Below, one piece after another: positions 3,698 to 22,706 of a stretch of 64,000 nt of DNA. The notes below the pieces were generated by a model. It had not been told where the DNA came from and made no database searches. It saw only the letters and a program-made list of their open reading frames with translations. How positions within the stretch are numbered: position 1 is the stretch's first letter; each line of letters starts with the position of its first letter. The DNA lies in contig NZ_LHVK01000006.1 in NCBI RefSeq assembly GCF_001269905.1, forward strand, positions 1 through 64,000. The letters run 5' to 3'. The position numbers and the translations under genes were made by a program. This DNA is from Pseudomonas corrugata (GTDB taxonomy: Bacteria; Pseudomonadota; Gammaproteobacteria; Pseudomonadales; Pseudomonadaceae).

Positions 3698-4183
3698 TCA
3701 GGTCAGGGTGGGTAAGGCGCCCAACTTGCCCTTGTGGTAGATCATCGGCGTGACCGGCTGCTCGGGCAGGATCAGGTGCTTGACCGCGCCGACGATGATT
3801 GCGTGGTCGCCGCCGTCGTATTCGCGCCACAGTTCGCACTCGATGATTGCCGTGGCCTTGGCCAGGATCGGGTTGCCGAGGTCGCTCAGGTGCCAGTCGA
3901 TGCCCTTGGCCTTGTCCTTGCCTTTACCGGCGAAGGCGTAGGCTTCGGCAGTCTGGTCGGCGGACAGCAGGTGAATCGCGAACTGCTTGCTGTCCCGCAG
4001 GATCGGGTAGGTGTCGGAAGCGTAGTTGGGGCAGAACAGGACCAGCGCCGGGTCGATCGACAGTGCGCTGAACGCACTGGCGGTGATGCCAACGATGTTC
4101 CCTTCAGGGTCCAGGGTGGTGACCACCGTGACGCCGGAGGGGAACGAGCCCATGACTTCTTTGTAAATGCCGGGTTCGATCAT
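3698..4183 (-). CDS. Flavin reductase family protein (monooxygenase reductase component)
   Basis: 161 aa, one split-barrel flavin reductase domain (HpaC/RutF type). Typical blocks are GSFPSGVTVVTT, GITASAFSALSIDPALVLFC and DHAIIVGAVKHL. Such proteins reduce FMN or FAD with NAD(P)H and pass the reduced flavin to a separate monooxygenase. No flavin-dependent monooxygenase gene is seen in the operon or elsewhere in the window, so its partner is outside or absent. AGGAG precedes the ATG; 12 nt separate it from the upstream aldehyde dehydrogenase. Confidence 0.93.
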   Translation of the reverse strand: MIEPGIYKEVMGSFPSGVTVVTTLDPEGNIVGITASAFSALSIDPALVLFCPNYASDTYPILRDSKQFAIHLLSADQTAEAYAFAGKGKDKAKGIDWHLSDLGNPILAKATAIIECELWREYDGGDHAIIVGAVKHLILPEQPVTPMIYHKGKLGALPTLT

Positions 4184-4195
4184 GGCGGCAGTCTC

Positions 4196-5677
4196 CTAGC
4201 GCATCACGAAGGGGTCAGGCATCGGTGCCTGAGAAAGGTTGATCCACACCGTTTTCAGTTCGGTATAGGCCAGCACCGAATCGATGCCGCTTTCACGTCC
4301 GTAGCCGCTGTTCTTGAAGCCCCCGATGGGCGCCATGGCCGAGACGGCACGGTAGGTGTTGACCCAGATGATGCCCGAACGCACGTCCCGGGCCAGGCGA
4401 TGGGCGCGGCCGAGGTCGCGGGTCCAGATACCGGCGGCGAGGCCGAACTGCGAGTCGTTGGCGATGGCCAGGGCTTCGGCTTCGTCTTTGAAGCGAATCA
4501 CCGAGGCCACCGGGCCGAAGACTTCCTCCTGCATGATCTTCATCGAATTGCGGTCGCATTCGAACAAGGTCGGCTCATAGAACCAGCCTTCACCCAGGTT
4601 CTGTGGGCGCTTGCCGCCCAGGCGCAGGCGCGCACCCTCGGCGATGGCGTCAGCAACCAGACCTTCGACCACGGCCAGTTGCTGGGCGGTGGCCATCGGT
4701 CCCATTTCGCTGCTGTCGTCTTGCGGGTTACCGATTCGGATGCGCTTGGCGCGCTCTTCCAGGCGCGAGACAAACTCATCGTAGATCTCGTCCTGCACCA
4801 GCAGCCGCGAGCCGGACACGCAGCTCTGGCCCGATGCGGCATAGATCCCGGCAATTGCACCGTTGACGGCGCTGTCGAGGTCGGCGTCGGCGAAGATGAT
4901 GTTGGGTGACTTGCCCCCCAGTTCCAGGGACAGCTTGGCGAAGTTCTCCGCGCTGCTGCGCACCACATGGCGGGCTGTGGCGGCGCCGCCGGTGAAGGCG
5001 ATCTTGCGTACCAGCGGGTGGCGGGTGAGGGCGGCGCCGGTACTTGGGCCGTAACCGGTCACGACGTTGACCACGCCTGCCGGAAATCCGGCCTCCAGGG
5101 CCAGGCGCGCCAGCTCCAGAACGGTTGCCGAGGCATGTTCGGACGGCTTGATCACGATGGTATTGCCAGCCGCCAGTGCCGGGGCGAGCTTGATCGCGGT
5201 CAGGTAGAGGGGGCTGTTCCAGGGAATGATTGCCGCCACCACGCCCATGGCTTCGTGCACGGTGTAGGCAAACATGTCCGGCTTGTCGAGGGGCAGGGAG
5301 CCGCCTTCGAGTTTGTCGGCCAGGCCCGCGGTGTAATGGAAGAACTCTGGCAGATAGCCCACCTGGCCCCGGGTTTCGCGGATCAGCTTGCCGTTATCGC
5401 GGCTTTCCAACTGGGCCAGTTGCTCCTTGTTTTCTGTGATCAGATCACCGAGACGGCGCAGCAACTTGCCCCGGGCGGTCGCCGTAAGTCCACGCCACGC
5501 GGGGCTTTCAAACGCCATCTGCGCCGCCTGGACGGCGCGTTCGACGTCGGCTTCGCCGGCGTCGGGCAGTTCAGCCCAGGCTTGGGCCAGGGCCGGGTTC
5601 AGGCTTTCGAAGGTCTTGCCGGACAGGGCATCGACCCATTCTCCGCCGATGCACATCTGGAAGCGTGCGAGAGTCAT
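4196..5677 (-). CDS. Aldehyde dehydrogenase family protein
   Basis: 493 aa, complete ALDH fold. It has VVAAIIPWNSPLYLTAIK for cofactor binding, a Glu in LELGGKSPNIIFADADLD and the catalytic Cys in SGQSCVSGSRLL. The start overlaps the stop of the upstream hydrolase gene by ATGA, indicating translational coupling. The best subfamily guess is a broad betaine-aldehyde/phenylacetaldehyde-type ALDH; the substrate is not readable. It is distinct in sequence from the SSADH-type enzyme two genes downstream. Confidence 0.93.
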   Translation of the reverse strand: MTLARFQMCIGGEWVDALSGKTFESLNPALAQAWAELPDAGEADVERAVQAAQMAFESPAWRGLTATARGKLLRRLGDLITENKEQLAQLESRDNGKLIRETRGQVGYLPEFFHYTAGLADKLEGGSLPLDKPDMFAYTVHEAMGVVAAIIPWNSPLYLTAIKLAPALAAGNTIVIKPSEHASATVLELARLALEAGFPAGVVNVVTGYGPSTGAALTRHPLVRKIAFTGGAATARHVVRSSAENFAKLSLELGGKSPNIIFADADLDSAVNGAIAGIYAASGQSCVSGSRLLVQDEIYDEFVSRLEERAKRIRIGNPQDDSSEMGPMATAQQLAVVEGLVADAIAEGARLRLGGKRPQNLGEGWFYEPTLFECDRNSMKIMQEEVFGPVASVIRFKDEAEALAIANDSQFGLAAGIWTRDLGRAHRLARDVRSGIIWVNTYRAVSAMAPIGGFKNSGYGRESGIDSVLAYTELKTVWINLSQAPMPDPFVMR

Positions 5678-6507
5678 GCAACGATCCCCTTTATTGAATT
5701 TTGTTGGGCGTACGCCTTGTCGAGGAACTCCAGCAGCAACTGGTTGACCAGACGTGGCGATTCCACCGGCATCATATGCCGCTGCTCGGCAAGCACGGCA
5801 ACGGCAGCACCAGGAATACGCGCGGCCAGTTGTTCCGCCATTTCGGGGGTTGAACCCGGGTCCAGCTCACCGGTGGCGATCAGCGTCGGTGCCTGGATGC
5901 TGCCCAGGTCGTCGGCACGGTACATGTCCTGGGTGGCGAACAGTTCATAAGTGGTCAGGTAACCCTGGGGATCATTCTTCGCCAGGGTCTGGCGCAGCGC
6001 GGCGATCTGTGCCGGGTTGGCGGCCTGGTATTCGCGGCTGAACCAGCGAGACAGTGCCGCTTCGGCGTTGGCGTCCGGACCATGCTCGGCCGCCTGGGCG
6101 GTACGGGCGATGACCCCGGCACGTTGCTCGGGGCTGCGGTTGAACACACTATTGAGCACTACCAGGCTTTGCAGACGCTGCGGGTAATGCAGGGCGAAAG
6201 CACGTGCCACCAGCCCGCCCATAGAGAAACCGATCACTGTGGCTTGAGGCACTTGCAGATGGTCGAGCAGTTCCCGCAACTGGTCGGCGTAACCGAGCAA
6301 ACCGGTGCCGCTGGCGGGGCGCGGGCTGGCGCCATGGCCGAGCATATCGTAGGTAATAACACGGTATGTCGTGGCCAGGCCAACGACCTGGCCGCCCCAC
6401 ATTTCTTTATTCAGGCCCACGCCGTGGATCAAGACCACGGGCTGGCCTTGGCCGGTCGCCAGGTAACTGGTGCCGGCCGGGGTGAGTTCAGCGGTGAGCC
6501 GAATCAT
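5674..6507 (-). CDS. Alpha/beta-fold hydrolase (RutD-like)
   Basis: 277 aa from the ATG at 6507, chosen because GCAGGAGCG lies directly upstream; longer in-frame starts would run into the preceding gene. The oxyanion strand PVVLIHGVGLNKEMW, the nucleophile elbow GFSMGG (about residue 104), an acid in ATGELDPGSTPEM and a late His in EQRHMMP form a standard triad. Together with the nearby flavin reductase it recalls the RutD/RutF pairing of pyrimidine degradation, but no RutA/RutB homologue is present, so this is only an analogy. It likely hydrolyses an ester, lactone or amide intermediate. Confidence 0.9.
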   Translation of the reverse strand: MIRLTAELTPAGTSYLATGQGQPVVLIHGVGLNKEMWGGQVVGLATTYRVITYDMLGHGASPRPASGTGLLGYADQLRELLDHLQVPQATVIGFSMGGLVARAFALHYPQRLQSLVVLNSVFNRSPEQRAGVIARTAQAAEHGPDANAEAALSRWFSREYQAANPAQIAALRQTLAKNDPQGYLTTYELFATQDMYRADDLGSIQAPTLIATGELDPGSTPEMAEQLAARIPGAAVAVLAEQRHMMPVESPRLVNQLLLEFLDKAYAQQNSIKGIVA

Positions 6508-6551
6508 GAAGCGCTCCTGCATGCCTTTTCTTGTTATGGGGCCGGGCTGGA

Positions 6552-7142
6552 TTACTGAGCCTTCTCGGCGGCCAGTTCTTCCAGGTCGATATAGCGGTTG
6601 CCGATGCGCGGATGCAGGCGGCCACCATCGGCGCAACCCAGCACCACGACAATTTCGTCGGCACGCGGCGCATCTTCGATCTGCATTTCCAGGGTGATGT
6701 AGTGCGAACGCAGACCTTCGTCGTCCTTATGCATCATCGGGATCTGGATCGAGGTGCCAGGACCGCCGCGCTTGTTGGTGAAGCTCAGGTAGCTCTTGGC
6801 CTTGACCGCTTCGCGGTAATGGTTGCCGAAGCGCAAGGTATGGATCACGGCAGAGGCATGCTCGATTTCACCGTCGGCGCCGACGACAGCAGCCTTGCCA
6901 TAGGCTTCGATTTTCTCGGCACCGCCGATAATGCCCACCAGGCGTTCGACCATCAGCGCACCGAGATCGGAACAGTTGGCGCGGATTTCCGGCTTCAGGT
7001 CTTCGACGAAACCCCGGCCCAGCCAAGGGTTTTTCATGACCACCGCCAGCCCGACCATGGTCACCGGCTTGTCGGTGGCCTTGCCGCCCTCGATAAAGGT
7101 TTCTTCGGCATAGCTGACGATCTTGCGAATTTCGAAACTCAT
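6552..7142 (-). CDS. Amino acid synthesis family protein (AA_synth, DUF1185)
   Basis: 196 aa from the ATG at 7142 (GGAGGG upstream); an upstream in-frame extension to 7508 crosses the promoter region and is not credible. The sequence matches the AA_synth family in blocks such as MSFEIRKIVSYAEETFIEGG, NPWLGRGFVEDLKPEI, YGKAAVVGADGEIEHASA and NKRGGPGTSIQIPMMHKDDE. The biochemical activity of this family is not established to my knowledge despite its name. It is the first gene of the operon and lies 41 bp from the palindromic operator candidate. Confidence 0.88.
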   Translation of the reverse strand: MSFEIRKIVSYAEETFIEGGKATDKPVTMVGLAVVMKNPWLGRGFVEDLKPEIRANCSDLGALMVERLVGIIGGAEKIEAYGKAAVVGADGEIEHASAVIHTLRFGNHYREAVKAKSYLSFTNKRGGPGTSIQIPMMHKDDEGLRSHYITLEMQIEDAPRADEIVVVLGCADGGRLHPRIGNRYIDLEELAAEKAQ

Positions 7143-7451: not shown

Positions 7452-7467
7452 TTGACAATCCGTTGTC
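7452..7467 (+). promoter_or_regulatory. Candidate promoter and operator of the NRPS-PKS cluster
   Basis: In the A/T-rich stretch before the DMT transporter gene a consensus -35 hexamer TTGACA (7452-7457) overlaps the inverted repeat GACAA-TCCG-TTGTC (7454-7467). A weak -10 candidate (TAGGCT) follows 16 bp later. The overlap of a -35 box and a dyad suggests a regulated promoter reading rightward. No regulator gene lies in the cluster itself. Confidence 0.35.
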
Positions 7468-7556: not shown

Positions 7557-8417
7557 ATGGATAGCGGAGTGTTTGGCGGGCTGATGGTGATGTTGTGTTG
7601 GGGGATATCGGACTTTATTCAAAGTCTTATGATTCGCCAACTAGGCACCGCGAAAACAATGTTGGTTCGCAATGTATTTACCTTTGCTGTTGCACTCCTT
7701 CTCGGGGTGTATCTGATCACCTTCCAGCAGCTCAGGTTCGATGCGGACGCTGTATTGATCATCACCTGCAGCTCTGTCGCATATGTATCCGGGTATTACT
7801 TCTACATGCGTGGCTGTGAAGTCGGCAATTTATCCCTGGTCTCTCCGATCGCCTCTACCTATAGCCTGGTCACTATCTTTTTTTCCATCATTTTTCTCCG
7901 GGAAAGCCTGGCCCCGATTGCCTGGTTGGCTGTATTGATTATTTTTATCGGTATTGTCATGACGTCCGGCAATATCTTCCAATCGCTGCGCGGTGGCTCG
8001 CAAGGCTTTCTCCAGGCCATCCTGGCCATGGTGGGTTTTGGCGTAGCCTTTTTCATTCTTGGCTTTTCCGCAAAGGCGCTCGATGTCACCAATGCCTTCT
8101 TTTATTCTGCGTTAACCCAGGCCGTTCTTTTCACTGCATTGGCTTTGAGCAGAAACGGTCGGCTGGAAAAAGGTGATCTGACCCGGCGTCGTGGATGGTA
8201 TTTTCTTACGCACTCTTTGTTGGTTAATGCGGGTTGGGTGTTTTACATCTTCGCCTCCAAAGTGGGTGAACTCTCGCTTGTTACGCCTATCAGTTCGGTG
8301 TACTCCGGAGTGACGGTGTTATTAGCTATTGCCATCTACAGGGAAATAACCACCCTGGGACAAAAGGTCGGAATAGGTACCGTTCTTGTTGGTGTCTTTT
8401 TGCTTAGTTATAAATGA
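7557..8417 (+). CDS. DMT superfamily (EamA-type) transporter
   Basis: About 286 aa with ten predicted membrane segments in two EamA halves. The first segment begins directly after MDSGVFGG, which favours the start at 7557; in-frame starts at 7521 and 7533 are possible. The half repeats are visible as LSLVSPIASTYSLVTIFFS (first half) and LSLVTPISSVYSGVTVLLA (second half). EamA proteins export amino acids, amines and other metabolites by proton exchange. It lies 135 bp before the NRPS gene on the same strand, so export of the cluster's product, or of a precursor, is a reasonable guess. Its base composition is more A/T-rich than the flanks. Confidence 0.88.
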   Translation: MDSGVFGGLMVMLCWGISDFIQSLMIRQLGTAKTMLVRNVFTFAVALLLGVYLITFQQLRFDADAVLIITCSSVAYVSGYYFYMRGCEVGNLSLVSPIASTYSLVTIFFSIIFLRESLAPIAWLAVLIIFIGIVMTSGNIFQSLRGGSQGFLQAILAMVGFGVAFFILGFSAKALDVTNAFFYSALTQAVLFTALALSRNGRLEKGDLTRRRGWYFLTHSLLVNAGWVFYIFASKVGELSLVTPISSVYSGVTVLLAIAIYREITTLGQKVGIGTVLVGVFLLSYK

Positions 8418-8453: not shown

Positions 8454-8552
8454 ACAGATGTTGTTGTGCTGAATACCTATGCTGGTCATTTGGCACTGCA
8501 TGCATGCCCATCTTAATTCTGTATGCCGATAACGGTAGAAGGAGTTCTTGGA

Positions 8553-11500
8553 ATGATGCAGCCGAAAACAAGCCCTATCAACGGTCCACCCATTGTCTTG
8601 GATCTTGTCACTAAGATTGATGAATGGGCGGATCAGTATCCTGGAAGAACAGCGGTAGTGTTTCAAGGTCAGCCAGTCACCTATGCTGAGCTTTCAAGTC
8701 GAAGAAAGGCACTTGCCAAGCATCTCTTGAGTAAAGGTCTTGGCGTGGGAAGCAAGATCGGGATCCACTTACCCAGAGAGCCTGATCTGATCGTGGCCTT
8801 GACTGCGGTTTTGTCGATAGGCGCCGTCTTTATTCCACTCCCCCCGGACTCACCACAGCAGCGCAATGAACTGATCTCCAGGCTTGCCCATCTCGACGCC
8901 GTGATCAAGCCTCGGTCGGTTGATCTTTCACAGTGGTCGATGGGCGCATCCCTGGATATTGAGGCGGTGGACTGGTGTGATTCGACATTGTTCTTCGAAC
9001 CTCTTGTCGATGACCTCTCGCTGGCCTACATATTGTTCACTTCGGGTTCGACGGGGCTTCCCAAAGGGGTGATGGTTCGCCGACAAAACCTCGCCTATTT
9101 TTTGTCTGCGATCAATGAGGTGATCAATTTTCCGGCGTGGGGGGCGCTCGTTTCCACAACAACCTATGGCTTCGATATTTCCATCCTGGAGTTTTTCCTG
9201 CCTCTTGCTCAAGGTGGCACGTTGTACCTGGCCAGCGAGCAGCAGAGCCGGGACGGCCAGGCAATCGCACATTTGCTCGACCACTGCGACAAGGCTCTGC
9301 TTCAAGGCACCCCGGCTACCTGGCGGTTGCTGATAGCGGCCGGGTGGCCCCGTACCTGCGCCGTCGGAGCACTGTGTGGCGGTGAAACACTGCCGGTTGG
9401 ACTGGGCGAAATAATCTTCCGCTCCGCGAGGGCGGCCTGGAATCTCTATGGACCGACAGAAACGACGATTTGGTCTTTCTGCCATCGCCTGCAGGCCAGC
9501 GACTTTACCGGTTCAGCGACCAGCGTCCCCATAGGCCAGCCTCTGCCTGGCACCCGTTTTCGATTGTCTGCATCGCAAGACTCTTTGGAGTCCGAACTGG
9601 TGATCGGTGGCCCTGGTGTCAGCGCGGGTTATTTCAATCGGGACGATCTGACGGCGGAGAAATTTCAGGGGACTGAAACAGGTGGCGCTTCAGCGACCTA
9701 CTACACTGGCGATCGGGTTCAACAACGGCCTGATAACTCGCTGGTTTTTATCGGACGTAAAGACCGGCAACTGAAACTCAATGGCTATCGTATCGAGCCT
9801 GGCGAAATCGAGTCGGCCCTTCATAAATCCGGTCTGGTCAGTCAATCCTTTGTCACGCTGGTGGAACATGCGCCTGATGACCACAGGTTGGCCGCCTACG
9901 TGGTGCTGGATAACCGCGCATCCGGCCAGCGCGTTGCAGATGCCGGTGTCTGGCTCGATGTGTGGGAAGCCGCTTACCTGTCGGCTCAGAAAAACGAGGT
10001 CGCCAGCGCCTCGAGCGGTTACACCTCAAGTTTCTCTGGCGAGTTGATCCCGGACAGTGACTTGCGCGAATGGGTGCAGGCGACGGCTTCGCGGGTCCTG
10101 GAATTCGCAGGCCATTCGGTATTGGATATTGGCTGCGGTATTGGCATGACGGGGGCGGTATTGCTGGAGAACGGCCTCCATCGTTACGTCGGTTGCGATG
10201 TCTCTGAAGTGGCGGTCGAGCGCGCGCGCCTGCGTCTGGATCAGGTCGCCGGTTCCCGCGCATCCTGTGCGGTGATGAGGAGGGCGGCCCACGAGCTGGG
10301 CACGCTGGATGAAGCACCTTTCGACGTTGTTCTACTGAACTCAGTCATCCAGTACTTCCCGGACATGGCCTACCTTGTCGGTGTGCTTGAAAAAGCCGCC
10401 GACCTGTGTCGCAAAGGAGGCGTGATTGTCATCGGTGATGTGCCTTACGCATCCCTGAAACAGGTATTGTCCGCCGCCGCGAGCCGTACACGGAAAAAGT
10501 TGAAGCGCACACCGCCCGTGGTTGGAGAGGGGGAGTTGTGGCTGGATCCCCTGCAGATCAAGCAACTGGCTTACGCGATGGAGCGCGTCGTCCACGTAGA
10601 GACTGAATTGCGAACGGGGCAGGGCAAGGATGAAATGACCCGCTATCGTTACGACGTCATCATCAGGCTCGACATGGACGACCGGGCCAGTCTAGCGCCG
10701 GTTGCACGCTATTCGTATCGGCACGAGCGTCTTCACGAACGAGATCTGGGTCAATGGCTGGCGTCGACCCCTTCGACGTTCGTGCTCTCGGGTGTTCCGA
10801 ACGCCAGGATCAGTCTGGACCTCCAGCTTTCCGAGGGCGGTTCCTCGATCCACCCGGACGAGGCCTGCGACCCGGAATACATTCGTCAATGGGCCGCAAG
10901 CCGTCATCTCCAGGCCAAAGTACGCTGGAGCGATAACCTTCCCGCCGGGACAATGGACATATTCGTGGGGCCCCACGACAGCCTGGATCCTACGTTTGAG
11001 CCACGTCCTGCTCTGGGCGACATGCAGATTGAACCCGCTCCTGTCCGGGAAATTGGAGATGTCGCTATGCGACAAGAGTTCATTGAGCAACTCAAGGCAT
11101 CTCTCCGAGCCCATGTGCCGTCCTACATGATTCCCGCTCACTTTATTTTCCTGGAGCGTTTCCCGCTGACGTTCAATGGCAAGTTGGATGTCGCCGCCCT
11201 TGAGCGGTTTGCGCCGCGCGTCCACTCCAGACGCTCGCCCGCGGACAACCAGCCATTGTCGGTCAAGCAGCGCCTGACGCAGATATGGTCTGACATCCTG
11301 ATGACTGCCTCGATACATCCGACGCAGAGTTTTTTTGCGCAGGGAGGATCCTCTCTGCTCATCGTCAACCTGACCCGGGCATTGAACGATGCCTTTGGCT
11401 TGAGGCTTCAAGTCACTGAGCTGTTCGAAGAAAACAGCCTTGACGCGCAAACCCGCCTGATCAACCAAAAACTCGGATCGGATACCGCCTTGTCCATGAA

Positions 11501-11582
11501 TCCTCCTACTTCTTCTTCCAGTGTGGACCGCAGGACCGCCGCCATCAGATCAGCGGCTCGTAGACGCCAGAAGCAGTTATAG
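8553..11582 (+). CDS. NRPS module A-MT-T (adenylation, N-methyltransferase, carrier), no condensation domain
   Basis: 1009 aa from the ATG at 8553 (GAAGGAG 8 nt upstream). Domain order: A-domain core at residues 1-450 with A3 LFTSGSTGLPKGV (161-173), A5 NLYGPTET (297-304), A7 YYTGD (383-387) and A8 NGYRIEPGEIE (410-420). A typical NRPS N-methyltransferase is inserted between A8 and A9 (about 465-705), with the SAM loop VLDIGCGIGMTG (523-534) and NSVIQYFP (596-603). Then A9 VPSYMIP (855-861), A10 NGKLD (875-879, catalytic Lys) and a carrier domain with GGSSL, phosphopantetheine Ser about 934. A basic tail of about 30 residues ends the protein. The pocket residues, aligned by hand to GrsA, read D-I-L-Q-A-C-L-I-W-K, closest to the known glycine code. 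With no condensation domain it looks like a loading module that activates and N-methylates glycine and hands it to the PKS encoded 43 bp downstream. Confidence 0.95.
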   Translation: MMQPKTSPINGPPIVLDLVTKIDEWADQYPGRTAVVFQGQPVTYAELSSRRKALAKHLLSKGLGVGSKIGIHLPREPDLIVALTAVLSIGAVFIPLPPDSPQQRNELISRLAHLDAVIKPRSVDLSQWSMGASLDIEAVDWCDSTLFFEPLVDDLSLAYILFTSGSTGLPKGVMVRRQNLAYFLSAINEVINFPAWGALVSTTTYGFDISILEFFLPLAQGGTLYLASEQQSRDGQAIAHLLDHCDKALLQGTPATWRLLIAAGWPRTCAVGALCGGETLPVGLGEIIFRSARAAWNLYGPTETTIWSFCHRLQASDFTGSATSVPIGQPLPGTRFRLSASQDSLESELVIGGPGVSAGYFNRDDLTAEKFQGTETGGASATYYTGDRVQQRPDNSLVFIGRKDRQLKLNGYRIEPGEIESALHKSGLVSQSFVTLVEHAPDDHRLAAYVVLDNRASGQRVADAGVWLDVWEAAYLSAQKNEVASASSGYTSSFSGELIPDSDLREWVQATASRVLEFAGHSVLDIGCGIGMTGAVLLENGLHRYVGCDVSEVAVERARLRLDQVAGSRASCAVMRRAAHELGTLDEAPFDVVLLNSVIQYFPDMAYLVGVLEKAADLCRKGGVIVIGDVPYASLKQVLSAAASRTRKKLKRTPPVVGEGELWLDPLQIKQLAYAMERVVHVETELRTGQGKDEMTRYRYDVIIRLDMDDRASLAPVARYSYRHERLHERDLGQWLASTPSTFVLSGVPNARISLDLQLSEGGSSIHPDEACDPEYIRQWAASRHLQAKVRWSDNLPAGTMDIFVGPHDSLDPTFEPRPALGDMQIEPAPVREIGDVAMRQEFIEQLKASLRAHVPSYMIPAHFIFLERFPLTFNGKLDVAALERFAPRVHSRRSPADNQPLSVKQRLTQIWSDILMTASIHPTQSFFAQGGSSLLIVNLTRALNDAFGLRLQVTELFEENSLDAQTRLINQKLGSDTALSMNPPTSSSSVDRRTAAIRSAARRRQKQL

Positions 11583-11625
11583 GCGCCATGTGACCAAGTC
11601 ACTTTCAAATTTGGGAGAGAAGAGG

Positions 11626-14600
11626 ATGAGCGAAACCAACTATCACGGAAATGAGATTGCCGTCATTTCCATGGCTTGCCGATTCCCGGGGGCCGACTCC
11701 GTTGACGCTTTCTGGGACAACCTGGTCTCGGGACGGGAATCCATCGACTCCATTTCGCTGGGGGCCTTGCTGGAGGCCGGTGTTACCGCGGAACAGGCCG
11801 GCCGAGAGGACTATGTCGCCAAGGCGGCGCGCCTGGACAATGTCGATCGATTCGACGCCGGCTTCTTCGAGATGCCGGCCCGCGAAGCGGCGATTACCGA
11901 TCCCCAGCATCGACTGCTGCTCGAATGCGCCTGGGAGGCGTTGGACGCTGCGGGGTTGAGCAAGGATCGTGAAGCACTGAACATCGGTGTTTTCGCCGGT
12001 GCAGGCAATAACGATTATCTTCATAACCAGGTTTTAGGCGAGGGCACCGGCGAAAGCGGTTTTTTGGACAGCAGCGCAGGCTTCATGAATCTGCTGGGCA
12101 ACGATAAGGATTACCTGTCGACGCGGATCGCCTACAAACTGGGGTTGCGGGGCCCCGCGCTGAACATTCAGACAGCGTGCTCGACCTCGCTGGTCTCGAT
12201 CCATATGGCATGTCAAAGCCTGTTGCTGGGCGAGTGTGATGTCGCGTTGGCTGGCGGTGTGACCGTGTTGGTCCCTCATGCCGTGGGTTATGTCTACCAG
12301 GAGGGGATGATCCAATCGCCGGATGGGCATTGCCGGGCGTTCGATTCATCCGCCCAGGGAACGATCTTTGGGAGCGGTGCCGGGCTGGTCACGCTCAAGC
12401 GTCTTTCCGACGCCCTGGAAGCGGGTGATTCCATTCAGGCGGTGATCAAGGGATCGGCCATCAACAACGACGGCTCGAACAAGATCAGCTTTGCCGCTCC
12501 CAGTTCCCAGGGACAAGCCCAAGTCATTGAACAAGCGCTGGCAAATGCGGAGGTAAGCGCTGCGACCCTGGGTTTCGTGGAAACCCATGGGACGGGGACC
12601 CCATTGGGTGATCCGATAGAATTCAAGGCGCTGAGGGATGTGTTTACGCAGCACGGTGCCAGGGCAAACACCTGTGCCTTGGGGGCGGTGAAAACCAACG
12701 TTGGTCATCTTATCGCCGCTGCTGGCGTAGCAGGGTTCATCAAGACCGTGTTGGCCCTCAAACACCGGGTAATTCCCGCCACGCTGCACTTTACCCACGC
12801 CAATGAAGACATTCATCTGGACGGCAGTCCGTTTTTCATCAGCGCTCGAACCGTCCCATGGCCGGCCGCTGACCTGCCGCTCCGCGCAGGTGTCAGTTCT
12901 TTCGGAGTAGGGGGGACGAACGCACATGTCGTTCTCGAGGAAGCTCCGCTGCGTCCGGCCCTTCCGGAGAAAGAGACCGACGGTCCTTGTCTCCTGGCGC
13001 TTTGCGCGAAGGACCGTGGGGCCCTGAGAGACCAGATAACCCAGTACCGGGAATGGCTCGAACGGCCCGGGACACCCTCCCTGGGCGATATTTGCTACAG
13101 CGCCCGGGTCGGGCGGGCGGAGTTCCCTTTTCGTTATACCGAGTCGGCCCGCCAGACAGAAACCCTGCTCGCCAAGCTCCAACAGGGCGACCAGGATATT
13201 CGCTGGGTCGACCCTGCCAGGGAGACCGGGCTGGTTTTTGTGTTCACCGGACAAGGGGCTCAGTTTCCAGGCATGGGCAAGGATCTCTACGCCCATAACG
13301 AGGTGTTTCGGGCATCTCTCGATCGCTGCGATACGATTGCGCGAGCTTGCATGGACATCTCCCTGCTCACGATCCTTTTCCCTTCGGCGCAGGATGATGC
13401 CGGGCTGATCGATCAGACACGCTACGCACAGCCTGCGTTGTTTGCGCTGGAATATTCCCTTGCCCAGGTGTGGCTGAGCCTTGGCGTCGTCCCTGACGTC
13501 CTGCTCGGGCATAGCCTCGGTGAGCTTTCGGCGGCCTGCGTGGCAGGAGTATTCAGTCTGGAAGATGGTTTGAGCCTGGTGGCCGAACGAGGTCGCCTTA
13601 TGCAGGCGCTGCCTCGGGATGGTGGAATGTCAGCCATCACACTCAAGGGCGAAGAGTTGGAACAACTGCTGGCGGAACATGCCATCGACCTGAGCATCGC
13701 GGCCATCAACGGCTCAGGCAATGTGGTGGTTTCCGGTGCGTTGAATGAATTGGACAGGCTCCACGGTGTGCTCGATACCCGGCAAACCCAGTACACACGT
13801 CTGAATGTTTCTCACGCGTTTCATTCTGCACTGATGGAGCCGATGCTGGCTTCCTTTGCCTCCATTCTCAAGCGTATCAGCCTGTCGCCGCCGCGCTATC
13901 CGCTGATCAGCAACGTCAGCGCAACGATTGCGACGGCGCGGCTGGTGACGCCGGAGTACTGGCTGGAGCATATTCGCCAGCCAGTCCGTTTCATGGACTG
14001 CATCCAGGCCGCATTCGAAAACGGTGGCCGCACTTTTCTGGAGATCGGGCCGAAGGCTGTGCTGTCAACGATCGGGGCGGCATGCCTGCAACCGGATGAT
14101 GCGGACCAGGTCACCTGGATAAGCAGCCTGAGCAGTAAGGTCGCCGATCGGGACCAGCTCCTGCAAAGCGCGGGACAGCTGTTCGGATCCGGGGTCGAGC
14201 TGGACTGGAATACGCTTCTGAACGGCTCGACATCGACACGTGTGACTGTTCCGAACTACCCATTCCAGCGGTCCTGTCATTGGGTAGGTAGGCCTATTCC
14301 AGCCCCGTCGCAATGGCTTACGACCGTGGACTGGGTGCCGCAACCCAGTCGTCCGCCAATCGTTGACGTCCAGGCACCTTTGGGGGTGTGGCTGTTTATC
14401 GGCGGCACAAGCGAGCTGGCCCAAGGTATTGGCAAAGGCTTGCCGAGTACTGAGGGGCCGATGATTCACGCGGTGTTCGCCGATGATTGCCGCCAGGTCA
14501 ATGCCCATCTCTGGCACATCAGAGCTGGCTTCCCCGAGGACCTCCGTGAGCTGTTTCAGTCGCTGCCAGTCTCTGCACAATGCCCGCTCAAAGGCGTGGT

Positions 14601-16989
14601 GCACCTCGGCGGGACCGACCAGGCATCCCCCCAGGATCGCCCTTCAGGACAGGAAGACCTCGCTCCCTTGGGGACCGGTCTCTACAGCGTGCCGGCGACC
14701 CTGCAAGCGCTGGCGAGCGCCTCCCGGTCAGAGGCCGCCAGGCTCTGGATCGTGACGCGCGCAGCGGTCAACGTACGTTCCGCTTCTTCGTTGATCAATG
14801 TTGCACAGGCCCCGCTTTGGGGCTTGGCTAAAGTGATCGCCCAGGAGGAGCCCGCAGTCTGGGGCGGTTTCATCGACCTGCCGCCTGACTTGGAGAAGAC
14901 CGATCTGTCTCTTGCCGCGCAACTGATGCTTGTGCACGGTCAGGAAGATCAATTCGCTATTCGTCAGGGTGGCGTTCATGTACCCAGGCTCGTGGAAGCA
15001 TCCCCAGGGAAGTCGAGGCCCCTGGCGTTAAGTCCGCAAGCGACCTATCTGGTCGTTGGCGGGTTCGGTGGGCTAGGGCGGGAGGTCCTTGCCTGGCTGG
15101 TGGAAAAGGGCGCTTGCCATTTGGCGGTGGTCGGGCGCAAGTCGCTGGACGCTACCGGCTCGAGCGTACTGGACAGGTTCAGACACCAGGGTGTGAGCAT
15201 CGACTATCTGCGTATGGATATCGCCACCCATGAGGCCGCCGAAACCCTGACGTCGTACATGGGCACTCTGCGATGGCCCCTACGAGGTGTGTTGCAACTG
15301 GCGGGGACTGTTGAAGACGCTGTCCTGTCGAAACTGAGTGCGTCGTCACTCAGTCATGTCCTGTTGCCAAAACTGCAGGGCACCCAAATGCTGGATCGGG
15401 TCACCCGCGATCAGCCGCTGGATTTTTTCATCGGATTCTCCTCAATCAGCGCGTCGCTGGGATTCAAGGGCCAGGCGAACTATGTCGCGGCCAACAGTGC
15501 GATGGACGCCATCATGGAAAATCGCGTCAGTTCGGGATTACCCGGTTTGAGCATCGCATGGGGACCTTGGTCTTCCGACGGCATGGCCAGTCGGGTCGAC
15601 AGTGTATTCAAGAAGCGCCTGTCGGCATTGGGCATCAACTACATATCCGCGCAAGTTGGCTTGCAGAGGTTGTGGGACAACCTGGCCACACAGGGTGTCA
15701 TTGGGATCGCGCCAATCGATTGGAAGCCCTACAAGGCGCACTTGCAGTCCAGCGACTGGCCCTACCTGTCGCTGATCGATGCGCAGCACCCGACGGGCGA
15801 GACAGCGATGGAGGGCGAGACAGTTCCTTTCCTGGACACTGTGTCGTCGCTGGATGACGAGCATCGACAGGCGTTCACCCTGGGCCGGTTGAGGGCGGTT
15901 GCGGCACGTGTCGCAGGTGGCTTCGACGCCGATGCAACGCCCGTGGACAAGTCGCTCACGATGATGGGGTTTGATTCGCTGATGACCGTTGAATTTCGCA
16001 ACAGTCTGAAAAAGCTTGGCATCAACTTTCCCCTGGGCAGGCTTATCGTCGGTGCCACGCTCAACGATATCGGCGATTTTGTACTCGAACATATCGAGGC
16101 GGTCCGTCAGGGCGATCCGGTCAAGCCTGCAAATGTTGGCCCGCCCAGATCGCAAGACGAGCAGACCTCTGGCTGCCTGGTTATTCCAGCCCCTCGACCT
16201 CAGGCAACGCTGCGCTTGATCTGTTTTCCGTATGCGGGCGGCGGGCCGGCGGTATTCAAGGGGTGGGCAGATCGACTACCGGATCACATCGAACTCTGCC
16301 TTTTGCAGTTGCCTGGACGCAATGCGCGACTGGGAGAAAAGTCGTACACCCGCATGGAAGAGTTGGTGACAAACCTGACGCCTGACTTGCTGCCCTATCT
16401 GGACCGGCCGTTTGCATTCCTTGGCTTGTGCCTGGGCGGTGTCCAGGCGTTTGAAGTGGCTCAATGCCTGGCCAAGGCGCATGACTTGTACCCCTCACAC
16501 CTGATTTTTGCCGGAAGCCGGGCACCGCATTTTTACAATGAGCATCAATTCGCCTCGGATGTCCTGCAGTTCAATTACGAGTCGGATGGCGAGTCCCCAG
16601 AAAGGGGAGATAGCGAGCTCATCGCCATGCTCAAGGAAATGAACTTTGCCAACAATCAGGCGCTGTTCGACGATGTTGAAATGCGTGACTTGATGCTTCC
16701 AATCATCAAGGCGGATTACGAAATAAATAACACCTACCTGTACCGGGCCCATCCTCCGCTGGCGGTGCCCATTACCTCGATTGGCGGGCGGATCGACCCC
16801 TACGCCACCGGCGTTCACATTACCGGCTGGCGTGAGCATACCACCGGCGTGTTCAGGTCGGTGTTCTGTGCGGGGGATCATTATTTTGTGGAAGGGCAGC
16901 GTGATCTGATCGCCAATATCGTGGTGGAAACGCTTGCCGGTTTGCCTACCTCAGCGGCCCATCTCTCAGCAGAAAACGTTCAACCATAG
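11626..16989 (+). CDS. Type I polyketide synthase KS-AT-KR-ACP-TE
   Basis: 1787 aa from the ATG at 11626 (GGGAGAGAAGAGG upstream). KS: residues 8-440, Cys185 in TACSTSL, His321 in ETHGTGTPLGD and His361 in NVGHLIAAAG. AT: about 535-830, Ser630 in GHSLGE and the HAFH motif at 730-733 that marks malonyl-CoA selection. KR: structural half about 895-1125 and catalytic half 1140-1320, with GGFGGLG and Tyr1286; the LDD position reads VED and the A-type Trp is absent. ACP: Ser1451 in GFDSL. TE: about 1525-1775, resembling type II thioesterases (FPYAGGG, QLPGRNAR), but the nucleophile elbow is GLCLGG, putting Cys1602 where Ser is usual, with Asp1723 and His1752. There is no DH, ER or methyltransferase, so the product should be one malonyl extension reduced to a 3-hydroxyacyl chain and then released. 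It is the partner of the upstream A-MT-T protein. Confidence 0.95.
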   Translation: MSETNYHGNEIAVISMACRFPGADSVDAFWDNLVSGRESIDSISLGALLEAGVTAEQAGREDYVAKAARLDNVDRFDAGFFEMPAREAAITDPQHRLLLECAWEALDAAGLSKDREALNIGVFAGAGNNDYLHNQVLGEGTGESGFLDSSAGFMNLLGNDKDYLSTRIAYKLGLRGPALNIQTACSTSLVSIHMACQSLLLGECDVALAGGVTVLVPHAVGYVYQEGMIQSPDGHCRAFDSSAQGTIFGSGAGLVTLKRLSDALEAGDSIQAVIKGSAINNDGSNKISFAAPSSQGQAQVIEQALANAEVSAATLGFVETHGTGTPLGDPIEFKALRDVFTQHGARANTCALGAVKTNVGHLIAAAGVAGFIKTVLALKHRVIPATLHFTHANEDIHLDGSPFFISARTVPWPAADLPLRAGVSSFGVGGTNAHVVLEEAPLRPALPEKETDGPCLLALCAKDRGALRDQITQYREWLERPGTPSLGDICYSARVGRAEFPFRYTESARQTETLLAKLQQGDQDIRWVDPARETGLVFVFTGQGAQFPGMGKDLYAHNEVFRASLDRCDTIARACMDISLLTILFPSAQDDAGLIDQTRYAQPALFALEYSLAQVWLSLGVVPDVLLGHSLGELSAACVAGVFSLEDGLSLVAERGRLMQALPRDGGMSAITLKGEELEQLLAEHAIDLSIAAINGSGNVVVSGALNELDRLHGVLDTRQTQYTRLNVSHAFHSALMEPMLASFASILKRISLSPPRYPLISNVSATIATARLVTPEYWLEHIRQPVRFMDCIQAAFENGGRTFLEIGPKAVLSTIGAACLQPDDADQVTWISSLSSKVADRDQLLQSAGQLFGSGVELDWNTLLNGSTSTRVTVPNYPFQRSCHWVGRPIPAPSQWLTTVDWVPQPSRPPIVDVQAPLGVWLFIGGTSELAQGIGKGLPSTEGPMIHAVFADDCRQVNAHLWHIRAGFPEDLRELFQSLPVSAQCPLKGVVHLGGTDQASPQDRPSGQEDLAPLGTGLYSVPATLQALASASRSEAARLWIVTRAAVNVRSASSLINVAQAPLWGLAKVIAQEEPAVWGGFIDLPPDLEKTDLSLAAQLMLVHGQEDQFAIRQGGVHVPRLVEASPGKSRPLALSPQATYLVVGGFGGLGREVLAWLVEKGACHLAVVGRKSLDATGSSVLDRFRHQGVSIDYLRMDIATHEAAETLTSYMGTLRWPLRGVLQLAGTVEDAVLSKLSASSLSHVLLPKLQGTQMLDRVTRDQPLDFFIGFSSISASLGFKGQANYVAANSAMDAIMENRVSSGLPGLSIAWGPWSSDGMASRVDSVFKKRLSALGINYISAQVGLQRLWDNLATQGVIGIAPIDWKPYKAHLQSSDWPYLSLIDAQHPTGETAMEGETVPFLDTVSSLDDEHRQAFTLGRLRAVAARVAGGFDADATPVDKSLTMMGFDSLMTVEFRNSLKKLGINFPLGRLIVGATLNDIGDFVLEHIEAVRQGDPVKPANVGPPRSQDEQTSGCLVIPAPRPQATLRLICFPYAGGGPAVFKGWADRLPDHIELCLLQLPGRNARLGEKSYTRMEELVTNLTPDLLPYLDRPFAFLGLCLGGVQAFEVAQCLAKAHDLYPSHLIFAGSRAPHFYNEHQFASDVLQFNYESDGESPERGDSELIAMLKEMNFANNQALFDDVEMRDLMLPIIKADYEINNTYLYRAHPPLAVPITSIGGRIDPYATGVHITGWREHTTGVFRSVFCAGDHYFVEGQRDLIANIVVETLAGLPTSAAHLSAENVQP

Positions 16990-16999
16990 GAGAGTTCAC

Positions 17000-18031
17000 A
17001 TGTCCTCACTGTTCCTGCGTACCGTGCTTTGCTTCGTCCTGAGCCTGACATCCCACTGGGCTTTGGCGACATCTGACACGCGTCCGATCCGGTTCTACGA
17101 TGGAGGCTGGGAAAATATTCAGATCGACAATCATATCGCCATGTACATCCTCAAGCATGGATACGGTATGAACGTGGAGTCTGTCAGTCTTGATATCGCG
17201 CAAATGCAGAATGCGATGGAGACCGGTGCCATCGATATCAATATGGAGGTGTTTACCTCACTGATGCCACAGTGGGTCCAGGATCAGACGGCGAAGAAAG
17301 CCATCCTCGATTTCGGCCCCACCTATGAACGTCTTACCCAGGCTTTCTATGTCCCCACCTACATGATCAAGGGCGATGCCGGTCGCGGAATCAAGCCGAC
17401 GACCCCCGATCTGAAGAGCGTCGCCGATCTCCCCAAGTATGCAGAGGTCTTCAGACAGGCATCGGGATCGGGCAAGCCGACCTGGCTGAACTGCATCAGC
17501 AGTTGGGCGTGCCGGGAAATCAACCTGATTAAAATGGCCACCTACGGGATCGATAAAACGTTCACGCCAGTGGAGCTCAAGTCCGAGTCGGCGCTCAACG
17601 CCGCGATCATTTCCGCTTACGAAAAAGGGCAGCCTTTCATGACGTATTACTGGGATCCGAGCCCCCTGATGGGCGAGCTGGCCCTTACGCGTCTGGAGGA
17701 GCCCGCCTACAGCGAAGCCTGCTGGGAAGCGATCAAGCAAAGCCTCGCGCAGTTCAAGGAAGGTGTTGGAAGCCAACAAGCCTGTGCCTATGCAGATATT
17801 CCACTCAATAAATACACCTCAGCCAGGTTCGCCGAAGAGCATCCGGGCGTCCTTCCTTTCCTGAAGTCGATGTTCGTGGGAACCGACACTATCCGGACGC
17901 TGGCAACCCGAATGGTTTCCAACAAGGAGACTCCCGAGCAGACGGCGCGCTATTACTTGCGTAACCACACCGCCGATTGGAAAGGGTGGGTGCCTGAGGA
18001 TGTGTTCAAGAAAGTCTCCGAGACACTGTAG
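17000..18031 (+). CDS. Glycine betaine/carnitine-type ABC substrate-binding protein (OpuAC family), orphan
   Basis: 343 aa. The signal peptide ends near WALA-TSD (residues 22-25), so the mature protein is periplasmic. OpuAC-family features are GGWENIQIDNHIAMYILKHG near the N-terminus, a Cys-bracketed block WLNCISSWACREINL and aromatic segments such as TYYWDPSPL, of the kind that form the Trp/Tyr cage around quaternary ammonium groups. The ATG is preceded by TAGGAGAG, which overlaps the PKS stop codon, so the genes are tightly linked. No permease or ATPase gene is nearby. Orphan binding proteins of this family (CaiX for carnitine, BetX for betaine) share a common Cbc permease in Pseudomonas, so this one may recover or sense the cluster's product. 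Confidence 0.92.
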   Translation: MSSLFLRTVLCFVLSLTSHWALATSDTRPIRFYDGGWENIQIDNHIAMYILKHGYGMNVESVSLDIAQMQNAMETGAIDINMEVFTSLMPQWVQDQTAKKAILDFGPTYERLTQAFYVPTYMIKGDAGRGIKPTTPDLKSVADLPKYAEVFRQASGSGKPTWLNCISSWACREINLIKMATYGIDKTFTPVELKSESALNAAIISAYEKGQPFMTYYWDPSPLMGELALTRLEEPAYSEACWEAIKQSLAQFKEGVGSQQACAYADIPLNKYTSARFAEEHPGVLPFLKSMFVGTDTIRTLATRMVSNKETPEQTARYYLRNHTADWKGWVPEDVFKKVSETL

Positions 18032-21773: not shown

Positions 21774-22136
21774 CATCGCGAGCAGGCTCGCACAATGGAA
21801 ATGGCGTCGGGCACAAATCCAGCGACCACCCGATCCCCCTGTGTGCGAGCCTGCTCGCGATGGCGGCTGCACATCCAACATCTTCGTAATCTGACCCACC
21901 GCTATCGCGAGCAGGCTCGCTCCCACAATGGGGCTGGCGTCGGGCACAAATCCAGCGACCACCCGCCCCCCCTGTGGGAGCGAGCCTGCTCGCGATGGCG
22001 GCTGCACATCCAACATCCCCGTAATCTGATCCACCGCTATCGCGAGCAAGCCCGCTCCCACAATGGGGCTGGCGTCGGGCTCAAATCCAGCGACCACCCG
22101 ATCCCCTGTGGGAGTCGGGCTTGCCCGCGAAGGCGT
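21774..22136. repeat. Tandem array of REPIN units
   Basis: Three units begin at about 21774, 21903 and 22038 (period 129-135 bp). Each pairs ATCGCGAGCAGGCTCGC with a GTGGGAGCGAGCCTGCTCGC-type inverted arm, and the units share spacers such as GGCGTCGGGCACAAATCCAG. Small differences between copies show decay after duplication. The array fills most of the gap between the transglutaminase gene and the acetyltransferase gene. Confidence 0.88.
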
Positions 22137-22208
22137 CTGCACAGTCGCTATCGGGCTAACTGGCGGTTTATAGTCGACGGCCATGTCATGTTTCCAGGAA
22201 GGAACCGT

Positions 22209-22706
22209 ATGTCAGAGCCCACGATTACCATCGTCCGTTTCACTGAAGCCCATCTCGACGCAGTGACCTCGCTTTACAACGACCCGGCCGTTACCCGCCA
22301 GGTGCTACAGATGCCGTTTCAGTCCACCGAGGTGTGGCGCAAGCGTCTGGCGATCGACGATGAGCGCCATGTGAAACTGGTCGCGCTGCATCAGGGCGCT
22401 GTCATTGGGAATCTGGGGCTGGAGCAGTATTCGCGTATCCGTCGTGCTCACTGCGGCAGCCTTGGCATGGGCGTCGCCGTCGCCTGGCAAGGCAAGGGCG
22501 TGGGCTCGATGCTGCTGGCCGCCGCGTTGGAGGTGGCGGACAACTGGATGAACCTGCGGCGGGTGGAACTGACGGTATACGCCGACAACGAGGCCGCCGT
22601 CGGGCTGTACCGTAAATTCGGTTTCGAGACTGAAGGCCTGATGCGTGACTACGCGGTGCGCGACGGGCGCTGGGTCGACACCCTGGCCATGGCGCGCCTG
22701 CGATGA
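22209..22706 (+). CDS. GNAT-family N-acetyltransferase (YhhY/AaaT-like)
   Basis: 165 aa from the ATG at 22209 (AGGAAGGAA upstream); the longer frame to 21795 is REP sequence. The GNAT acetyl-CoA loop is VAVAWQGKGVGSMLL (motif A), followed by DNWMNLRRVELTVYADNEAA and YRKFGFETEGLMRDY (motif B). The C-terminal half resembles E. coli YhhY, reported to acetylate some amino acids. The substrate here is not proven. Confidence 0.9.
   Translation: MSEPTITIVRFTEAHLDAVTSLYNDPAVTRQVLQMPFQSTEVWRKRLAIDDERHVKLVALHQGAVIGNLGLEQYSRIRRAHCGSLGMGVAVAWQGKGVGSMLLAAALEVADNWMNLRRVELTVYADNEAAVGLYRKFGFETEGLMRDYAVRDGRWVDTLAMARLR

Follow-up and report, generated by a model that had tools for sequence, protein, structure and literature searches.

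The region described here lies in a window of 64,000 nucleotides (contig NZ_LHVK01000006.1, positions 1–64,000 of the forward strand) from the 6.13 Mb genome of Pseudomonas corrugata, and contains a compact cassette that joins a nonribosomal peptide synthetase (NRPS) to a polyketide synthase (PKS) and to proteins of transport. Four genes, all transcribed in one direction on the forward strand, make up the unit. The first (7557–8417) encodes an EamA/DMT-family transporter, likely an exporter, whose open reading frame (ORF) possibly begins at 7452 but has a conserved methionine start near 7557. It is followed by an NRPS loading module of 1,019 residues (8523–11582), which is composed of an adenylation (A) domain, an N-methyltransferase (MT) and a thiolation (T) domain and has no condensation (C) domain, and by a PKS of 1,787 residues (11626–16989; ORF open from 11521, ATG at 11626) with the domain order KS-AT-KR-ACP-TE. 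The last gene (17000–18031; ORF open from 16934, ATG at 17000) encodes an OpuAC-family periplasmic substrate-binding protein (SBP), whose N terminus appears signal-like by eye. The coordinates leave intergenic gaps of about 105, 43 and 10 bp.

The domain assignments by Pfam all lie above the curated cut-offs: AMP-binding, Methyltransf_12, AMP-binding_C and PP-binding in the NRPS; ketoacyl synthase, acyl transferase, KR, PP-binding and thioesterase in the PKS; and OpuAC in the SBP. The margins are narrow for AMP-binding_C of the NRPS (6 bits) and PP-binding of the PKS (4 bits). The transporter matches the Pfam family EamA. An earlier note, made from the letters of this DNA, had described an A-MT-T synthetase without a C domain, a neighboring KS-AT-KR-ACP-TE synthase and a binding protein after it, and the Pfam matches and open ORFs bear out this layout. 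Gene content and domain order are read directly from the sequence, as are the active-site motifs, the conserved pocket code and the cage residues described below. Purifying selection acts on all four genes, with ratios of nonsynonymous to synonymous substitution rates (dN/dS) of 0.05–0.19 in comparisons with P. mediterranea and with P. cichorii, for the latter of which dS exceeds 1; the ratio for EamA is 0.06–0.08. We regard EamA as the fourth member of the unit since it accompanies the other three genes in P. cichorii despite a different upstream flank. A search for promoters and terminators gave none that was convincing, the counts falling below those in shuffled sequences (2 versus a mean of 4.8, and 8 versus 10.8).

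The A domain of the NRPS begins near residue 33, and the MT sits within it: the AMP-binding match covers residues 33–371, the MT approximately residues 533–637 (core at 10119–10440), and the AMP-binding_C match residues 853–887. The specificity pocket (D235 to W331 at 9174–9473, with K517 at 11181–11183) has the code DILQACLIWK, which is identical in all eight NRPSs read, five from Pseudomonas and three from Rhizobium at ∼40% overall identity. Asp235, Gln278, Trp331 and Lys517 of a glycine-type pocket are present in each of the eight. The Gln and Trp are located 43 and 99 residues past Asp235 (protein residues 218, 261 and 317), a spacing equal to that of D656, Q699 and W755 in the glycine pocket of DhbF. 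In DhbF, D656 (equivalent to Asp235) is positioned at the amine, and the pocket is closed by W755, which also forms a bond with Q699 (PMC11253843).

The NRPS aligns with the solved structure 5wmm in a single match across residues 46–893, including the inserted MT and the NSVxQYFPD motif, and the part that runs from the MT to the end of the A domain matches with an E-value of 1.7e-37. We take 5wmm to be TioS, an interrupted A domain that methylates the backbone nitrogen. By its late insertion and its alignment to a solved A-NMT protein, the NRPS is, on sequence grounds, an interrupted A domain with an N-MT. These features support the activation of a glycine-type substrate, and the N-MT would methylate the carrier-bound amine.

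In the PKS, the active-site residues are present in each domain: Cys185, His321 and His361 in the KS, Ser630 in the AT, Lys/Ser/Tyr in the KR and Ser1451 in the ACP. The AT carries the motif HAFH, a rule-of-thumb signature of malonyl-CoA specificity, which points to malonyl-CoA as the extender. At the LDD position the KR reads VED, and the motif Trp is missing; by the usual rule, an LDD-type signature without this Trp marks a B-type KR with a D-series product. By our derivation for a 4-amino-3-hydroxy chain, the KR motifs would predict an (S) product of the D-carnitine series, opposite to L-carnitine. Judged by their motifs, the domains and residues of a hybrid NRPS-PKS line are all in place.

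The closest solved relative of the SBP is 7yle (E-value 5.7e-12), which we take, from its residue numbering, to be the dimethylsulfoniopropionate-binding protein DmpX; the pocket residues used below are those given in its description (PMC10030565). The stronger segment of the alignment equates SBP residues Y216 and W218 with DmpX Y200 and W202, and W169 and W218 with ProX W140 and W188. A weak segment (i-Evalue 0.075) places W37 on DmpX W35 and Phe85 on W84, while DmpX W152/A153 and E113 are matched by motif alone. W37, W169, Y216 and W218 are invariant in all seven aligned SBPs; position 85 is Phe in five and Tyr in the two from rhizobia. A quaternary ammonium or sulfonium cage, formed by W37, F85, W169 and W218 in the window protein, thus appears to be conserved in the seven. 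Identification of the SBP as ChoX or ProX was rejected, since its scores lie far under the curated NCBIfam cut-offs. There is no ABC permease within the cassette. ChoXWV-type choline ABC permeases were found above the family cut-off in all six carrier genomes checked, and orphan SBPs reportedly recruit a shared Cbc permease.

Within Pseudomonas, all four genes are found in P. sp. SJZ074, P. citri and P. mediterranea at 87–96% identity, with both flanks as in the window. P. cichorii has the four genes at 75–84% identity; its upstream flank differs, and its contig ends just past the SBP. EamA is 84–95% identical across the five Pseudomonas relatives that carry the cassette. At E≤1e-100, the NRPS was detected in two of 398 genomes of the genus, one being the genome of the window itself and the other (G010) carrying all four genes. 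P. sp. BCA17 gave an NRPS match only, at 29% identity, and is not the same kind of locus. The PKS of P. citri contains one in-frame stop and was excluded from the PKS alignment. An empty-site comparison was dropped: in ten cassette-less relatives that match both flank genes, these genes were never adjacent, being on different contigs (seven) or far apart (three).

A tblastn search of a plasmid collection with the PKS returned 619 records at 1e-100, the seven best of which are rhizobial, with 97–99% coverage and 41–43% identity. Three of these seven, from R. sullae, R. etli 8C-3 and R. gallicum, also have the NRPS (39.8–40.0% identity) and the SBP (45% identity). A fourth Rhizobium carrier, genome G1433, contains the NRPS, PKS, SBP and a DMT transporter; its PKS matches as two segments in different frames, which, like the stop in P. 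citri, indicates either a pseudogene or an assembly error. In these four, the NRPS, PKS and SBP are re-ordered at ∼40–48% identity, the three plasmid loci having the order PKS-SBP-NRPS with the DMT transporter upstream. The NRPS was detected in four of 148 genomes of a genus set (g113) that we take to be Rhizobium, since its coordinates equal those of R. etli 8C-3, and in none of the 146 genomes of another genus set (g116). NRPS, PKS and SBP stand together in six Pseudomonas and four Rhizobium loci. The rhizobial DMT protein was considered as an orthologue of the Pseudomonas EamA protein and rejected: the two share the EamA Pfam family, but their best blastp E-value is 0.23. Since this similarity is not significant, we limit the claim of conserved orthology to the NRPS, PKS and SBP.

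The motifs of the PKS differ between the two genera. Three Rhizobium loci have VASH in the AT, versus HAFH in Pseudomonas, and NEN in the KR, versus VED; NEN allows no typing of the KR. The extender in Rhizobium may differ, and the product may carry an extra methyl group or have the opposite configuration. In R. sullae (locus record L026, 14001–33346), nodC, nodB and a member of the nodA family lie ∼5–9 kb away from the cassette on the plasmid, and the cassette may be a symbiosis accessory there.

Loci without the MT provide a contrast. A related PKS (40–44% identity) is accompanied by a shorter A-T loader in Rhizobium sp. BT03, in three Mesorhizobium plasmid records and in genome G941, the latter being the only family-wide PKS match at E≤1e-250 (1 of 394 genomes). 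Pfam detects an MT in none of the five shorter loaders, and the pocket code in the three that were read is DVQPITQVV-. Neither the Pseudomonas nor the rhizobial SBP, nor the rhizobial DMT, has a match at E≤1e-3 in any of these five loci, over stretches of 18–33 kb, of which that from Mesorhizobium sp. 131-2-5 ends ∼0.9 kb past the PKS. The SBP, on the other hand, is present in 10 of 10 MT-carrying loci. The co-occurrence of MT and SBP is a correlation and, because the lineages are few, not a test of many independent events. The three groups of PKSs are roughly equidistant (40–45%), and therefore gain and loss of the MT and SBP cannot be told apart. A GntR regulator is encoded in the four annotated MT-less records and a phosphopantetheinyl transferase in three; in Rhizobium sp. 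BT03, a radical SAM gene of the KamA family is located close to the locus.

Given the conserved code, the 5wmm-like MT, the cage of the SBP and the loci that lack both MT and SBP, there is good support for an N-methylated 4-amino-3-hydroxybutanoyl backbone, which we consider clearly probable. A quaternary, carnitine-like product is plausible, with about an even chance of being correct, while carnitine itself is unproven and a minority reading. We propose that the cassette is a two-protein line with dedicated transport that makes an N-methylated, most likely quaternary, carnitine-type betaine, a proposal for and against which we find the balance equal. Substrate, number of methylations, mode of release and direction of transport are inferred. 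The A domain would charge the T domain with glycine, whose free amine would then be methylated by the inserted N-MT; repeated methylation is conceivable because no upstream C domain consumes this amine. The PKS would then add one malonyl unit, the KR would reduce the β-keto group, and a TE with a cysteine nucleophile would release the 4-(N-methylated amino)-3-hydroxybutanoyl chain, possibly as a β-lactone. The product would leave the cell through EamA and be recaptured by the orphan OpuAC protein, which would probably recruit a Cbc-type ABC permease. A more specific version, in which a trimethylating NRPS-PKS line closes to a quaternary β-lactone or a D-carnitine-type betaine that is exported and recaptured via a private SBP, is tentative and less likely to hold in full.

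Several steps of this scheme were already part of the earlier note. Glycine-like activation, N-methylation, one malonyl extension, ketoreduction and release by the TE are supported by the motifs and homologues. The assignment of the SBP to a betaine/carnitine type stands in so far as the protein belongs to OpuAC, has an aligned aromatic cage and is conserved alongside the synthase in two distant lineages, but not as far as the ChoX and ProX models, whose cut-offs it does not reach. Of the interpretation as carnitine, the N-methylated backbone is retained, but the KR motifs predict a configuration opposite to that of L-carnitine.

A number of observations weigh against a quaternary betaine made by a glycine-loading line. 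The pocket code departs at two of ten positions from the glycine code, which we take to be DILQLGLIWK; a literature search for glycine code strings gave no match. The MT-less loci are closely related to one another, and the NRPSs of Rhizobium are 96–100% identical, so that the co-occurrence stems from few independent lineages. The SBP scores 44.2 against a cut-off of 379 for TIGR03414 (ChoX) and 44.6 against 215 for the ProX model. Its best solved relative, DmpX, shows hardly any binding of carnitine (PMC10030565). The cage was mapped by sequence only, in part from the weak DmpX segment, and an AlphaFold model of the SBP was discarded because of a mean pLDDT of 38 (its alignment had five rows, at 87–98% identity). 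In addition, N-MT domains of NRPSs normally add a single methyl group, and a chain whose amine stayed secondary and free would instead cyclize to a γ-lactam.

The last two points lead to the likeliest alternative, in which the MT monomethylates, N-methyl-4-amino-3-hydroxybutanoate or 4-hydroxy-1-methylpyrrolidin-2-one is released, and the SBP has some other ligand. The ready cyclization of γ-amino thioesters is established chemistry. However, an SBP whose alignment suggests a quaternary-amine cage accompanies the synthase in two lineages and gave no hit in the loci without the MT, and we regard monomethylation as possible rather than probable.

Lactone release is a serious rival to hydrolysis, owing to a feature absent from the earlier note: the TE nucleophile is a cysteine, Cys1602 (GLCLG; 16429–16431), in a triad with Asp1724 (16795–16797) and His1752 (16879–16881). 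The cysteine (GXCXG) is present in all 15 related PKSs (10 by alignment, 5 by motif), versus a serine in the other 12 of the 13 PF00975 matches in the same genome, three of these 12 being under the cut-off. Among the 13 phmmer hits of a query that started inside the TE, at 16270, the best solved relatives are the type II thioesterases 3qmw/3qmv (3qmw presumably being RedJ), 6vap and RifR. RifR residues 200 and 228, which we take to be its catalytic triad positions, are the counterparts of Asp1724 and His1752 in the alignment. Two reports describe a cysteine nucleophile, a RifR-like Asp and a grouping with type II TEs for both the β-lactone-forming TE of ObiF and the β-lactam-forming TE of SulM (PMC6668435, PMC11298585). 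Lactone release is therefore a real option, and a β-lactone is chemically possible because the chain bears a β-hydroxyl, although simple hydrolysis is equally so. The product could then be a cationic carnitine-type β-lactone that acts as a reactive warhead or signal and not as a solute. However, a Cys TE can also hydrolyze; the 13 phmmer hits do not include ObiF (6n8e); and the Gln-Cys-Asn motif of SulM is absent, the window TE having Leu-Cys-Leu, Rhizobium His-Cys-Val/Ile and the MT-less relatives Phe-Cys-Leu/Tyr. The occurrence of the same cysteine in the MT-less relatives, which have a different starter, also argues against a specific link to a cationic lactone, and we consider this outcome rather unlikely.

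It is improbable, in our view, that the SBP instead imports a building block such as glycine betaine or dimethylglycine, which the A domain would load in pre-methylated form. Membership in OpuAC and the reported tendency of orphan SBPs to feed shared permeases are compatible with import, but Asp235 and the glycine-type code are conserved, and the retained N-MT would be pointless. Equally doubtful is free L-carnitine as an osmoprotectant or nutrient, for although the backbone is identical and the SBP is of the right broad family, a B-type KR (VED, no Trp) would by the usual rule give (S)- and not (R)-carnitine, and to make a bulk solute on an assembly line is expensive. Known carnitine biosynthesis proceeds from trimethyllysine through trimethyllysine hydroxylase, an aldolase, an aldehyde dehydrogenase and butyrobetaine hydroxylase.

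Two further features of the window lie outside the cassette. On the opposite strand, at 3698–7133, genes for a flavin reductase, an aldehyde dehydrogenase, an α/β hydrolase and an AA_synth protein (PF06684) form a likely catabolic operon. Three relatives have it next to the cassette as well, whereas P. cichorii does not. At 21778–22106, direct repeats spaced 133–135 bp apart are located in and just before an acetyltransferase-like ORF (21795–22706). They comprise a pair of 135-nt copies with 91% similarity and a set of three 61-nt copies, of which the last two are 84–87% like the first, and look like a Pseudomonas intergenic repeat.

The PKS has very probably been noticed before. A conserved type I PKS of P. 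corrugata and P. mediterranea was described in 2015, with best matches (∼40%) in R. sullae WSM1592 and M. loti MAFF303099 pMLa; the part of that paper available names no product, loader or binding protein for the cluster (PMC4528175). We equate the two loci because R. sullae and M. loti records match here too. Two PKS-NRPS hybrid clusters, for which the accessible text reports no product detected, are known from P. mediterranea EDOX (PMC8477016). Literature searches for assembly-line carnitine or 4-amino-3-hydroxybutanoate, de novo carnitine, N-MT starters and P. cichorii clusters revealed no precedent in the titles and abstract beginnings of the matches listed, those for de novo carnitine dealing with animals or people. 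To our knowledge, betaine and carnitine analogues are otherwise made by stand-alone enzymes. If the proposed betaine is correct, plant-associated Pseudomonas and legume symbionts would have in common an assembly-line route to a betaine/carnitine analogue, its carriers being plant pathogens and root-nodule symbionts, and one unit would combine the making of a small cationic metabolite with its recapture. The two enzymes (∼1,000 and 1,790 residues) are small enough for full reconstitution, and the Cys TE offers a test case for lactone-forming TEs outside the obafluorin and sulfazecin systems.

Parts of the predicted line resemble known systems. The NRPS resembles 5wmm, presumably TioS, in the MT inserted into the A domain and in the NSVxQYFPD motif, but is a stand-alone loader without a C domain that has a glycine-type code and feeds a PKS. 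The SBP has the OpuAC family, the pocket Trp residues and the YYW motif in common with DmpX and ProX; unlike these, it is genetically tied to an NRPS-PKS, lacks a permease in its cassette and scores under the ProX and ChoX model cut-offs. The TE is similar to those of ObiF and SulM in its cysteine nucleophile, RifR-like Asp position and type II-like character, whereas its substrate would be a polyketide-extended chain. Lastly, the glycine betaine reductase ATRR, which converts betaine to choline, is likewise an NRPS-like enzyme (A-T-R1-R2) that acts on a quaternary amine, but has neither an MT nor a PKS (PMC11050029).

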